From: Candidatus Altimarinota bacterium
GTDB taxonomy: Bacteria; Patescibacteriota; Gracilibacteria; UBA4473
Reading direction: 5' to 3'
Length of the DNA stretch: 64,000 nt
Assembly (NCBI GenBank): GCA_021736215.1
Contig: JAIPGI010000005.1
Coordinates: 1 to 64,000 of the forward strand
The notes under the pieces were generated by a model. It searched no databases. It was not told the origin of the DNA and saw nothing but the letters and a program-made list of their open reading frames with translations. Below, in pieces: positions 5,996 through 28,529 of the stretch. How positions within the stretch are numbered: position 1 is the first letter of the stretch; every line of letters begins with the position of its first letter. A program made the position numbers and the translations under genes.

Positions 5996-7213
5996 TTATG
6001 GTATAAATTGTATAGGTGCTAATTTTCGCTCCTCAAATCCGACAGGAGCGGTCCTGTACGTACCATTGCGACTCGCTGTTTCTTTCGCAAAAGTACTGAT
6101 CATAGACCCATCCGACAAAAATATTGAGAGTTCCCCATTCCCCCCATTGGGATAAAATGCCTTCGAAGCGTCTGGTTTTAGCTTTACCCGAAAAACTCGC
6201 TCTTCTCCAGCAGGAATAAGTAAATTCAATCCCCCTATAAAAATACTTCCTGTTCGAGAAGCAATTTGTTCTCGAGAAACACCACCCCCCGTGAGTGAGA
6301 GATAAAAATTTTCAGCAGGACCAATGTTGGTCTTTTCGAAACGAAGCTTGAATTCAAGACTATGAAGCTGAACCCTATCGTCCAAATTATTTGCTATACG
6401 AAGCGTTCCAAGATCAGCAAAATCAGAATTAGAATTCAAGACAACGGTTTCCTCTCTTGGGACAGCTGTAATTTTGAGTTGTTTTTTCTCAACGTCATAT
6501 CCTTGTTTATTGGGATTAAAATCTTTTGGTTTAATGGCCACTCGACGAGTGTCACGGTAACTCCCCTCAATAAGAATATTCGTTCCTGATTCTCCCATAA
6601 GACGTGGTTTTTGGAGAATTTCAGAAATAGTCCACGCAGCATCCGCACGACTCACTTCGGTATCAGGATGATAGAGGGTTCCTTTTTCTCGAATGAGATC
6701 ATTTGCCACTAAATGAGAAACTGACTCAGAAAACCATACCTGGGAAGGAACATCTGAAAAATCCAACTCTCCTACTCTCGAAAGCTCGAAAACTCTCGAC
6801 ACTAATGTTGCCCACTCTGCACGGTTTATGGCGCGAGCTGGCCCAAATGTCCCATCCATAAACCCATTAATCCATCCATTGTCCACCGCTACTTGAACCG
6901 CTCCAGAGAACCATTCTCCTCTTGGAACATCCGAAAATGCTACCTTTGAAGTCCGTGAAGAAGTTCCGAAATCAATTTTTTTTGTCCTGAGCAAAAGCAC
7001 TAACGCCTCCGCTCGGTTCAGAGACCTATTTGGACGAAATGATCCGTCGCCAAACCCTGTCATAATTCCTTCTGATTGTACTATCTCAATGGGAGCTTCT
7101 GCCCAAAGCGGAATATCTTGGTTATCGGTAAATCGCAAAACAGCTTCCGCCTGAGGCAAGAGAACAGCGAAAGAGAAAAGTACACTGAAGAACAAAACCC
7201 CTCTTTTTTTCAT
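5996..7213 (-). CDS. SLH-domain surface protein
   Basis: A 405-residue secreted protein. A Sec signal peptide (MKKRGVLFF...PQAEA, likely cut near residue 24) is followed by three SLH domains at about 28-75, 93-140 and 152-198, with the typical FxDVP...W, G(W/I)I.GF.DG.F.P and NRAE motifs. SLH triplets bind cell-wall polymers and anchor surface proteins. Residues 215-405 are beta-rich and resemble the domains of the 630-residue protein at 8540. The third repeat has DAAW where NRAE is expected. This may be an anchor of the S-layer-like coat. Confidence 0.88.
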   Translation of the reverse strand: MKKRGVLFFSVLFSFAVLLPQAEAVLRFTDNQDIPLWAEAPIEIVQSEGIMTGFGDGSFRPNRSLNRAEALVLLLRTKKIDFGTSSRTSKVAFSDVPRGEWFSGAVQVAVDNGWINGFMDGTFGPARAINRAEWATLVSRVFELSRVGELDFSDVPSQVWFSESVSHLVANDLIREKGTLYHPDTEVSRADAAWTISEILQKPRLMGESGTNILIEGSYRDTRRVAIKPKDFNPNKQGYDVEKKQLKITAVPREETVVLNSNSDFADLGTLRIANNLDDRVQLHSLEFKLRFEKTNIGPAENFYLSLTGGGVSREQIASRTGSIFIGGLNLLIPAGEERVFRVKLKPDASKAFYPNGGNGELSIFLSDGSMISTFAKETASRNGTYRTAPVGFEERKLAPIQFIP

Positions 7214-7289
7214 GTGTATTTGTATAAGAATCTGTTGGTTCTAGCCTAGAGGATTTGATTTTTTTTGCAAATTCTGATAGAAGGACTAG

Positions 7290-8408
7290 GTGAAAAAACA
7301 AAATATAGTACTTATTGGATTTCGAGGAGCAGGAAAGAGCACTTTTGGTCGTGCTATTGCTTCTGTAACCAACCTTCCTTTTGCTGATATCGATGAGGAG
7401 GTAGAATTCCTTATCGGAGAATCTGTGGGGAAGTTTGTCGAGAAACATGGGTGGCAAGTTTTCCGAGAAGTGGAACAACGCGTTACGCATGATTTTTGCC
7501 GTAATTTTTCAGGAATTTTGTCCACGGGAGGCGGAACTATAGAAAATTCAAAAAATCTCCAAAACCTAAAGAAAACAGGCGTATTTGTGTTCATCAATCC
7601 CGAGTTCAAGAAAGTTCGAAAATACCTTATCGAAAGTGATAAGGAGAAAAAAAGACCACGATTCAATCCTAGCATTTCTCTTTCGGAAGAAATCGATCAA
7701 ATGTGGAACCAACGGAAAACCATCTATCAAGCAACGGCTGAGATTGAGATTGTTCCTGATTTTGACGGAAAATGTATGGATGAGGCCAAAAAAATGGTCA
7801 AAATACTGGAAAAACTCATTCCTCCTTCTCCACCAAAAAGACGCGTAGCAATCCTTTCTTCCAGTAATGGGACAACTCTTCAAGGACTCCTTAATGCGCA
7901 AAAAAAAGGTCGTATTCCAAATGTTGAGTTTTGTCTTTTTGTGACGGATCAACCCGAGTGTGGAGCTTTGGAAAAAGCAAAAAAAGCAAAAATTCCTCGC
8001 ATTGAAGTATTGGAAGCCAAAAAGAATATAGACCGAGAAGAATACGACCGAGGTCTTATGAATATTCTCCGAGAGCAAAATCCCGATATCATCCTTTTAG
8101 CAGGATGGATGAGGATTTTATCAAAACTATACTGTGACCAATTCGGAAGTGTTACGATAAACGTACATCCATCACTTCTTCCTCAATTTGCCGGTCTCAA
8201 GGGAGATGAAGTACACCAAAAAGTACTCGAATACGAGGAACGCTACACAGGTTGCACATTCCATCGTGTCAGCAAAGATGTCGATACAGGCGAAATAGTC
8301 CTCCAACGAAAGGTGTTGGTTGAAGAAAACGACACCATAGAGTCACTCCGATACAAAGTCCAAAATCAGGAAATCTTGGGATTCTGCGAATTATTAGAGA
8401 AACGGTAA
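7290..8408 (+). CDS. shikimate kinase - GAR transformylase fusion (AroK-PurN)
   Basis: One 372-residue chain carries two enzymes. Residues 1-175 are shikimate kinase: Walker A GFRGAGKST, FADIDEEVE, FREVE, STGGG, the lid KKRPRF and the R..IY helix. Residues 184-372 are phosphoribosylglycinamide formyltransferase: SSSNGTTLQ, LAGWMRILS, the catalytic NVHPSLLP and DVDTGEIVLQ. Both sets of key residues look complete, so both activities are likely. The first phosphorylates shikimate on the route to chorismate and pABA; the second uses 10-formyl-THF in purine synthesis. The start is GTG 7290 with GAAGGA just upstream. I see no internal stop or start that would split it. Confidence 0.9.
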   Translation: MKKQNIVLIGFRGAGKSTFGRAIASVTNLPFADIDEEVEFLIGESVGKFVEKHGWQVFREVEQRVTHDFCRNFSGILSTGGGTIENSKNLQNLKKTGVFVFINPEFKKVRKYLIESDKEKKRPRFNPSISLSEEIDQMWNQRKTIYQATAEIEIVPDFDGKCMDEAKKMVKILEKLIPPSPPKRRVAILSSSNGTTLQGLLNAQKKGRIPNVEFCLFVTDQPECGALEKAKKAKIPRIEVLEAKKNIDREEYDRGLMNILREQNPDIILLAGWMRILSKLYCDQFGSVTINVHPSLLPQFAGLKGDEVHQKVLEYEERYTGCTFHRVSKDVDTGEIVLQRKVLVEENDTIESLRYKVQNQEILGFCELLEKR

Positions 8409-14780: not shown

Positions 14781-15557
14781 TTATTTATGACAAGCGTTCT
14801 CGCCATGTTCGAAGATGAGTTTTCTGTGTTCAAAAACATCATGAACCCGTAAAAAGGCTGCTCCCATATCCAGTGCTCTGCGAGCAGCACAAAGATTCGT
14901 ATCTATTTCAAATCGCTTTTCTCCCAAAAATCGCTTACGAGAATGTCCAATTAAGACTCGTTCATTGGGAACTAGCAAAGGAAATTTCAGAAGCTCCCAA
15001 TTGAGTTCCATGGTTTTCCCAAATCCAATACCTGGATCCAAAACTATCGCCGAAGCACTGACTCCCGATTGAAGCAATTGTTCTTTTCGAAAAAGTAATT
15101 CATCTCGAACCTGATTTATTGAACAAATTTTTTGTTCATGAACTTCGTCAACCGTTTTACCAGGGAAATGATTCACAATAATCATTGCGAATTGGGGAGC
15201 GATATCTCTCATGCAGGAATTACCGAAGCCCGAAACATCATTGAGAATCGTTCCTCCAAGTTCAAAAAACCTCCGAGCTGTTTCTGGGTGGAATGTATCC
15301 AAGGAAATTTTATTGGGATATGTTTTGAGAAGTGTTTTCAAGATAATTTCTTCTCTCTCCCACTCCTTCTGCCATGGAATATCTGGAGATCCTGGACGCG
15401 TACTTTGCCCTCCTACGTCGACAAAATCCGCTCCATCATCAAAGAGCTTCTGAGCTTGATCCAAAGCCAATTTCTCATCCAGAAACTTTCCTCCATCAGA
15501 AAAACTATCTGGTGTCACATTGAGAATTCCAAAAATCTGACAGTTATTTTTTTTCAT
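14781..15557 (-). CDS. folP: dihydropteroate synthase
   Basis: FolP joins pABA to 6-hydroxymethyl-dihydropterin diphosphate, the step that makes dihydropteroate. Family motifs are all present: GILNVTPDSFSDGG, DVGGQSTRPGS, LDTFHPE, the DVSGFG loop, LDPGIGFGKT, IGHSRKRF and the final LRVHD. Length is about 258 from ATG 15557. The pABA supplier pabB is at 27.4 kb and the one-carbon enzyme folD at 16.9 kb. A TTGAACA palindrome lies inside at 15119-15139, encoding HEQKICSI. Confidence 0.95.
   Translation of the reverse strand: MKKNNCQIFGILNVTPDSFSDGGKFLDEKLALDQAQKLFDDGADFVDVGGQSTRPGSPDIPWQKEWEREEIILKTLLKTYPNKISLDTFHPETARRFFELGGTILNDVSGFGNSCMRDIAPQFAMIIVNHFPGKTVDEVHEQKICSINQVRDELLFRKEQLLQSGVSASAIVLDPGIGFGKTMELNWELLKFPLLVPNERVLIGHSRKRFLGEKRFEIDTNLCAARRALDMGAAFLRVHDVFEHRKLIFEHGENACHK
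15119..15139. repeat. TTGAACA palindrome, copy 2 (inside folP)
   Basis: TTGAACA, A/T-only centre, TGTTCAT: one end base differs from a perfect inverted repeat. Confidence 0.7.
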
Positions 15558-15687
15558 CAGTATAAAAATACATTTCACATTTAAAGATGTCGAGAACTAT
15601 TTGAATTTAAAATTTTTCATTGATAATTGTTCATTTATCGCGTCGAAGTTTTTGACGAAGACGGATTGTTCATTGATAATTGCTCAT

Positions 15688-16836: not shown

Positions 16837-16902
16837 GTTTGTTTGATCATTAAATTTGTTTGTGCAAAACCCTTTCCTCATTACAATCGCAGTGTTTCCA
16901 CC

Positions 16903-17760
16903 ATGACAGCAAAAATTATTTCTGGTCGCGACATTGCTCAACGCATTATTGAGAAAGAGTTGAACCCTCGTGTTCAAAAATTAAAACAAAAAGGCATCAC
17001 CCCAAAGCTCGTAGTTATTTTTGTGGGAGATCATTCAGCTTCTGCGAGCTATATCAAACAAAAAGAGAAATTTTCCGCTCTCGCAGGAGTTGTTTCTGAA
17101 GTACGACGATTCCCCGAAAGTCTGAGCGAAGAAGCACTCTTAGGAGAAATTGCGAAAATAAATGCTGATAAAAGTATCCACGGAGTAATCGTTCAACTTC
17201 CTCTTCCCGCGCACATCAATATGAAAAAGGTGATTGAAAGCATTGCCCCTACGAAAGATGTTGATGGATTTGGAGAAGCCAACAATAAAGATTTAGATGT
17301 TCGTGAATCATCGCTCCCTCCCTGTACTCCAAAGGGCATCATGACCATGCTCGAAAAATCAAAAATTCCCATCAGTGGAACTCGTGTGGTGGTTATGGGC
17401 AGATCTCATATTGTCGGTCGACCAGTAGCAGAAATGTTATTGTACAAAGGAGCTCTCCTCAAAGTCCTCCATTCTCAAACTCCCCCCGATGAGGCGGCTC
17501 GAGCACTCAAAGAAGCCCAAGTCCTTATCGTTGCCGTAGGGAAACCAGAATTGATTCATGGAGAACAACTCTCCAAAGGCGTCATCGTTATTGACGTCGG
17601 CATTCATAAACGCGAAGACGGATCAATGTGCGGAGATGTTCATTTTGATTCTGTTAGCAAAGTCGCCTCTCTCATGAGCCCTGTGCCAGGAGGAGTTGGC
17701 CCAATGACGGTTGTCAGTTTGATTGAAAACACCGTCAAAGCGGCCGAACAAAAACTCTAA
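16903..17760 (+). CDS. folD: methylene-THF dehydrogenase/cyclohydrolase FolD
   Basis: FolD interconverts 5,10-methylene-THF and 10-formyl-THF, the donor used by the PurN half of the fusion at 7290. The 285-residue protein has SYIKQKEK with the catalytic lysine, GVIVQLPLP, DVDGFGEAN, PCTPKGIM, the NAD(P) loop VVMGRSHIVGRPVAEML, and PVPGGVGPMT. ATG 16903 gives the family N-terminus (the frame is open to 16843). It stands alone between a repeat element and the convergent channel gene. Confidence 0.95.
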   Translation: MTAKIISGRDIAQRIIEKELNPRVQKLKQKGITPKLVVIFVGDHSASASYIKQKEKFSALAGVVSEVRRFPESLSEEALLGEIAKINADKSIHGVIVQLPLPAHINMKKVIESIAPTKDVDGFGEANNKDLDVRESSLPPCTPKGIMTMLEKSKIPISGTRVVVMGRSHIVGRPVAEMLLYKGALLKVLHSQTPPDEAARALKEAQVLIVAVGKPELIHGEQLSKGVIVIDVGIHKREDGSMCGDVHFDSVSKVASLMSPVPGGVGPMTVVSLIENTVKAAEQKL

Positions 17761-27368: not shown

Positions 27369-28529
27369 CTAGATACGAGATACTTTTTTCAAAATTTCTG
27401 CCTTCTGAAAGGTTTCTTTCCACTCTGCTCTCGGATCTGATTCATAAGTGATGCCTGCCCCCACAGGAAATTCCCATAGGGAACCCCCTTCCTTTTTTCT
27501 TCCTCCCCCCTTGGGGGAGGGCTGGGGAGAGGGCTGTGAGGAATTCAAAAAAAGAGTCCTAATGAGGATGTTAAAAATGGATTCGGTCGGTGAAAACTTC
27601 ACACCAAATGTCCCCGTATAAAATCCTCTCTCAAAACTCTCGAGTTCTGAAATGTACTCCATAACTCGTTTTTTGGGAGCCCCAGAAATCGATCCCGCTG
27701 GAAGAAGTTTTCGATACATTTCCCATGTGAGATCTGCTTGTGGACCAAGTGAAGCAAAAACTTCAGAATGCGCGTCCCAGAAATCTCCCCGATTGACCAA
27801 AACTCGTTCCTTCTCAACCCAAACACGTTGCGCAATTTGTCCCAAATCGTTCCGAAGGAGATCCGTAACCATAGCAAGTTCTGATATTTCCTTTTTGTTT
27901 TCCTTCAAATAAGAAAGCGTCCCCGTTCCCTTGATGGGAAACGTCGAAAGAGTCTGTCCTTTTTGGTGGAGAAAGATTTCCGGTGACATTGAACACATTT
28001 TTTGTTCATTAGTAAAAACCACTCCCCCGCAATGATCTTTTTGGAGTTTTAGGAATCTATAAAAAAGTGATAAAAGGACCGTTTCATTTTCCATTTTTCC
28101 CGACAATTGATGCGCTAAATTCAAAACCCACACATCTCCATTTTCCGCCGCATGGCGCACTCTTTTTGCTTTTGCGACAAATGATTCCTCTGTTTCATTT
28201 GAACACTGAGCCAAGTCAAAAGTTAATTCCCCAATAATATTGTTTAAAACTTGTGGAAATTCTTTATTCTCAAGTTCTGCACATTCGATACTAGAAAGAG
28301 TGTTTTCGAAATACCAAAAGTATTTCATGTCGCCTTTGAACGATGTCAAAGAAAAGAATGGAAACGGTCCCTGAGCAAAATCCACGTTGCGTTTCTTCCC
28401 CCATCCAAAAATCCATCGTTCCTGATTCCCTTGTTTTTCAGAAAAAAAGACTCCCTCATTCCCTTCTAAAAGTTTCGATGCAAATACAGAGAAGGCTTGA
28501 AGGGAAGTACTTACGATTGTTTCATCCAT
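27369..28529 (-). CDS. pabB: aminodeoxychorismate synthase component I (PabB)
   Basis: A chorismate-binding enzyme making 4-amino-4-deoxychorismate, the pABA precursor. FPIKGTGTL has the lysine of the PabB PIKGT motif rather than the alanine of anthranilate synthase. Other motifs are TDLLRNDLGQIA, PAGSISGAPKKRVMEYI, RGFYTGTFGV and VGAGITYESDP. Residues about 329-350 (QPSPQPSPKGGGRKK) are a translated intergenic repeat inserted in frame between two conserved strands. Its start overlaps the end of rnc by 19 bp. No PabA or PabC gene is visible nearby. Confidence 0.9.
   Translation of the reverse strand: MDETIVSTSLQAFSVFASKLLEGNEGVFFSEKQGNQERWIFGWGKKRNVDFAQGPFPFFSLTSFKGDMKYFWYFENTLSSIECAELENKEFPQVLNNIIGELTFDLAQCSNETEESFVAKAKRVRHAAENGDVWVLNLAHQLSGKMENETVLLSLFYRFLKLQKDHCGGVVFTNEQKMCSMSPEIFLHQKGQTLSTFPIKGTGTLSYLKENKKEISELAMVTDLLRNDLGQIAQRVWVEKERVLVNRGDFWDAHSEVFASLGPQADLTWEMYRKLLPAGSISGAPKKRVMEYISELESFERGFYTGTFGVKFSPTESIFNILIRTLFLNSSQPSPQPSPKGGGRKKEGGSLWEFPVGAGITYESDPRAEWKETFQKAEILKKVSRI
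27480..27545. repeat. CCCCTT/GGGG repeat inserted inside pabB
   Basis: CTTCCTCCCCCCTTGGGGGA followed by GGGCTGGGGAGAGGGCTGTG, a half unit of the intergenic family at 16764, 20921 and 37170. It keeps the pabB frame open. Confidence 0.7.
27989..28009. repeat. TTGAACA palindrome, copy 4 (inside pabB)
   Basis: TTGAACA, centre CATTTTT, TGTTCAT. On the coding strand it encodes NEQKMCSM. Confidence 0.7.

Follow-up and report, generated by a model that had tools for sequence, protein, structure and literature searches.

One open reading frame on the 64,000-nucleotide stretch of DNA analysed here (the window) reads as a shikimate kinase joined to a GAR transformylase, and the locus raises the questions of whether such a protein is genuine, how it arose and why it has been kept. 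The frame consists of 372 codons, contains no internal stops and ends in TAA (Table 1). Pfam recognised both families in its product: SKI was matched over the whole domain (E-value of 3.7e-33, 115.3 bits against a cut-off of 22.1), and Formyl_trans_N was matched at residues 185-365 (E-value of 1.5e-39, 136 bits, likewise well over its cut-off). All site residues of the kinase were present (P-loop K16-S17, D33/D35, R59, GGG at 80-82, R122-P123 in the lid and R142), as was the complete catalytic Asn-His-Asp of PurN (N291, H293 and D332). This bears out the preliminary description of this DNA, which had read a complete shikimate kinase with Walker A, GGG and lid residues and a complete PurN from one uninterrupted frame. 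Judged by these residues, both halves look catalytically complete in the window genome. The PurN half narrowly passed the NCBIfam PurN equivalog (151.6 bits against a cut-off of 150.1). The NCBIfam shikimate kinase equivalogs were the best matches of the kinase half, though under their cut-off (at best 96.6 of 161 bits); these models describe a narrow subfamily, and the shortfall concerns the subfamily name, not SKI membership.

The AlphaFold2 model of the window protein was confident (pLDDT 93.4, pTM 0.89), and this pTM in a two-domain chain implies a defined packing of the domains across a predicted interface. Foldseek searches with the model returned solved GAR transformylases, of which human and bacterial enzymes were the best matches, and solved shikimate kinases, with the C. 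burnetii AroK (3trf) as the best; a PDB sequence search agreed. The fused chain of a relative, G015 (374 residues, intact frame), was also modelled confidently (pTM 0.86). Identity in the linker was 23-75% in the pairs compared, the lowest of the whole chain. We rejected an internal start that would make PurN alone, as an ATG at codon 169 with an upstream GAGG occurs in the window genome, G013 and G007 and is absent from most others.

Taken singly, the two halves are ordinary representatives of their families; it is their combination that is new, within the scope of the searches made. The kinase half shares with AroK/AroL (PF01202) the fold, P-loop, DxD, R59, GGG, lid RP and R142, but carries PurN at its C-terminus and lies below the NCBIfam equivalogs. 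The PurN half lies above the TIGR00639 equivalog and shares the N-H-D triad of that family, but forms the second half of a fusion and has a shortened C-terminal tail. In human trifunctional GART (PurD-PurM-PurN), too, PurN forms the C-terminal part of a multifunctional chain, but there the partners are purine enzymes. Shikimate kinase is likewise one domain of a multifunctional chain in AroK-AroB (PRK14021, PRK13951) and pentafunctional AROM, and an AroE-AroK fusion is known in Methanomicrobiales (PMC11237513). Whereas these three join the enzymes of one pathway, the partner of AroK in the window comes from purine synthesis. The open-access papers searched contained no report of an AroK-PurN fusion, in line with the earlier remark that the pairing was unfamiliar. 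Multifunctional fusions usually link steps within one pathway; AroK-PurN bridges two and is fixed across an order.

Table 1. Coordinates of the fusion gene, its parts and selected neighbours in the window
Feature	Position	Strand	Remarks
Fusion CDS AroK-PurN	7290..8408	+	372 aa; N-terminal shikimate kinase and C-terminal GAR transformylase; GTG start, TAA stop
Shine-Dalgarno-like stretch GAAGGA	7280..7285	+	Putative, from motif and spacing; 4 bases 5' of GTG
Shikimate kinase domain	7323..7751	+	Pfam SKI, residues 12-154; K16-S17, D33, D35, R59, G80-G82, R142
Lid motif R122-P123	7653..7658	+	Equivalent to H. pylori R116-P117 and M. tuberculosis R117-P118
Linker	7752..7841	+	Residues 155-184; least conserved stretch; no conserved internal start codon
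GAR transformylase (PurN) domain	7842..8384	+	Residues 185-365; N291 (8160-8162), H293 (8166-8168), D332 (8283-8285)
S-layer-homology-domain protein	5996..7213	-	Divergent neighbour of the fusion
FolP, dihydropteroate synthase	14781..15578	-	TIGR01496, 193.8 bits, cut-off 162.6; context
FolD	16843..17760	+	Clear identification; context
PabB-like chorismate-binding enzyme	27369..28529	-	Pfam; best NCBIfam model pabB, below cut-off; context

Distribution and origin of the fusion

The analysis covered 20 genomes of the order, spread over 15 genera of a single family and referred to by G numbers, with G000 as the window genome. The fusion was found in 20/20 of them. Sixteen, from 12 genera, carry it as a full-length intact frame with 56-80% identity to the window protein, and four (G001, G004, G005 and G016) carry it in pieces that end at contig ends. 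Completeness is 70-76% in G001, G007, G010 and G014. The survey further covered 353 other genomes of the class, a 380-genome sample of the phylum and a scan of other phyla for close relatives. Outside the order, every match listed for the class and for the phylum sample covers one half only, and none is an AroK-PurN fusion; the matches listed reach down to weak ones, and a fusion would rank high among them.

The window protein is confirmed as a genuine AroK-PurN fusion. That an assembly error or a frameshift joined two genes can be ruled out, as the same uninterrupted frame was recovered from 16 separately assembled genomes in 12 genera, including the interval between residues 170 and 185 where a stop had been named as the finding that would count against a fusion.

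In phylogenetic trees, the fused PurN halves formed one clade (support 100/100) on a long stem, apart from the stand-alone PurN of the class, and the fused kinase halves also formed one clade (support 95/85). Because the fused versions of each half form a clade of their own, the fusion most likely arose once. Neither fission nor shortening of the chain was seen in the 20 genomes of the order.

In family f11 of the class (L056, L141, L151), purN, recG (on the opposite strand), aroA and aroK are clustered. We rejected an origin of the fusion by simple deletion from this neighbourhood, considering that purN precedes aroK there and that recG lies on the other strand.

Catalytic residues in the two halves

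The window genome is that of a tiny, uncultured Gracilibacteria-type bacterium and is 93% complete. Family searches and the inspection of selected stretches of genome served to check for pathway genes. The window genome has aroA, aroB and aroC; for purine synthesis it has purD and purM, with a PurF-like gene upstream of the latter. The family search of this genome found no second shikimate kinase, the fusion being its sole SKI match, and no second PurN; its other Formyl_trans_N matches are weaker and, by size and score, probably Fmt-like. A PurT-grade match was absent from it, and within the order only G001, G002 and G009 have one. The fusion appears to be the only enzyme for both steps in the window genome, and in most members of the order each half seems to be the only enzyme of its kind found.

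Four fusion-bearing genomes from three genera (G006, G007, G017 and G018) gave no match to aroA, aroB or aroC. The leftover EPSP-type matches in G006, G007 and G018 were MurA-like (about 65-78 bits), and G017 had none. All four of these pathway-less genomes have Tyr or Ile in place of the lid arginine; the fused kinase of G017 additionally reads GKA instead of GKS/T, and that of G018 GHA instead of GGG. A second, stand-alone shikimate kinase was found in G013, G014 and G015, of which those of G013 and G015 sit on short contigs and are possibly foreign. Two of these three genomes have lost the lid arginine (G013 and G014, the latter also with GSS instead of GGG), while G015 retains it with P123 changed. 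Together, the lid arginine is lost in six relatives, and it is kept in 12/12 of the genomes that have the aro genes, lack a second kinase and have a lid that could be read. Mutagenesis of the lid motif in the H. pylori shikimate kinase left the R116A and R116K variants with undetectable activity (PMC3306394) and abolished their binding of shikimate (PMC3306394; PMC3290551).

The decay of the kinase half is uneven along the chain. K16, D35, R59 and R142, in the ATP/shikimate pocket, are retained in every fused kinase, the pathway-less ones included. At residues 61-96, every degraded sequence still agrees with 67-100% of the consensus, while in the lid region (residues 109-132) agreement drops to 25-50% for the pathway-less kinases. 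Per-domain dN/dS serves as a bound only, with dS saturated in nearly all pairs. Since the kinase halves of G006 and G007, both pathway-less and of genus g5, are 80% identical despite saturated synonymous change, this half remains under purifying selection in these two genomes.

Two side observations concern the same genes. In G001, the 3' end of the fusion is directly followed, on the same strand, by a second, stand-alone shikimate kinase (L055:4082-4648) whose site is intact. Genus g5 retains FolP and FolD despite its loss of aroA, aroB and aroC, a combination that suggests uptake of pABA or folate.

A comparable decay was found in the PurN half. In G011 and G015, a separate purN lies just downstream of the only purM, and there, as nowhere else in the order, the Asn and Asp equivalent to N291 and D332 are gone from the fused PurN. 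Their PurN halves score just 70-90 bits against the PurN model and are the fastest evolving in a fixed-topology tree, with terminal branches of 1.14 (G011) and 0.60 (G015) against at most 0.36 for all others. Both chains retain their full length, their C-terminal helix is conserved, and the last 12 residues (361-372) of the degraded half keep 92% of the consensus in G011 and 67% in G015. We rejected contamination as the source of the separate purN in G015, where the only purM shares its contig and has 60% identity to the purM of G018; for G011 this exclusion is less certain.

Because the sites degrade in genomes that lack the pathway or have an extra purN, each half appears to behave as a real enzyme that decays once redundant, in a chain that is never split. 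The independent trait changes (about three in kinase need, four in the lid arginine and two in extra purN) are too few to give the association formal significance, and the loss of sites where an activity is redundant is a strong pattern, short of statistical proof. For annotation, a full-length match to the fusion does not prove both activities.

Retention of the whole chain

We consider it probable that one fusion event at the base of the order made a bifunctional enzyme whose halves later became structurally co-dependent. After the AroK and PurN genes had fused there, the kinase half at the N-terminus would carry out step 5 of the shikimate pathway, the phosphorylation of shikimate, and the PurN half at the C-terminus step 3 of purine synthesis, the formylation of GAR, with the two reactions proceeding independently of each other. 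Loss of the shikimate pathway or gain of a second kinase would then free the kinase half to lose the lid arginine or further residues of its site, and a separate purN would allow the PurN half to shed its catalytic residues. The chain would stay whole because its halves pack together and need each other for folding or solubility. We favour this mutual need as the most likely reason for retention because the confident domain arrangement in both models fits packed halves. Two observations stand against it: G015 keeps the lid arginine despite its second kinase, and the pathway-less kinases keep D35, R59 and R142, residues that would be dispensable in a purely structural role.

The main rival is neutral inertia, which we judge unlikely but the best placed of the alternatives. 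The halves would be independent, the fusion would bring neither benefit nor co-dependence, and splitting would be rare as it needs a new promoter, start and stop. The poorly conserved linker is consistent with this, and the fusion of AroA to NUDIX or DUF559-NUDIX in the same order suggests a fusion-prone lineage. However, dead halves are untruncated in 20/20 genomes and the pathway-less kinase half is conserved. A single stop codon would remove a dead C-terminal half, yet the chains of G011 and G015 run to full length.

We find it rather improbable that selection preserves a third role, non-catalytic or newly catalytic, to which both known sites are secondary. The protein would then have a conserved role in scaffolding, regulation or the binding of a partner, and possibly this applies most to G015, where it would be a pseudoenzyme kept alongside a separate AroK and a separate PurN. 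There, the PurN site has degenerated and the lid has changed, yet the frame is intact and the fold confident. Fusion-specific motifs such as HDFxRNFSG and TIENSKN are highly conserved, also in pathway-less genomes, and the universal retention of K16, D35, R59 and R142 points the same way. Against this, the sites are intact wherever the activity is needed, so that catalysis would be selected in most members, and structural co-dependence would explain the remaining cases.

Coupling of folate and chorismate supply to the demand of purine formylation, raised as an inference in the preliminary description, is very improbable. Of the folate genes that it had placed in the window, FolP and FolD are clear, and the third is PabB-like by Pfam but falls below the NCBIfam pabB cut-off. 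Their presence near the fusion, with FolP and FolD within about 10 kb of it in several genera, would fit such coupling, but the distance to these genes is 6-20 kb and they are on mixed strands, and shikimate-3-phosphate and GAR/formyl-THF are not successive intermediates. Coupling is disfavoured above all because either activity can go while the fusion stays: it is kept in the four genomes without aroA, aroB and aroC, which would not be expected to make shikimate, and in the two where the PurN half is dead and a separate purN sits beside purM.

With structural co-dependence as our preferred reading, the relatives in which either site is lost and the chain is whole offer a test of why fusions persist, be it channelling, structural addiction or inertia.

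Gene neighbourhood and other fusions

In 13/13 genomes with a long enough contig, a gene of the S-layer-homology family is found upstream of the fusion, with three genes in between in G008, and this neighbour persists where other gene order has changed. A control region shared by the two genes is possible.

AroA with a C-terminal NUDIX fusion was observed in the order at L125:1081-2856 (G002), L180:2272-4410 (contig C11 of the window genome) and L181 (G019). The AroA-DUF559-NUDIX protein of the window genome has 713 residues, with the nuclease-like DUF559 between AroA and NUDIX. Elsewhere in the class, an AroA-AroK fusion of about 549 residues, again a union of enzymes from one pathway, was found in family f27 (L153:3593-5242, G295), and other long AroK frames in the class and phylum survey may be AroA-AroK too.
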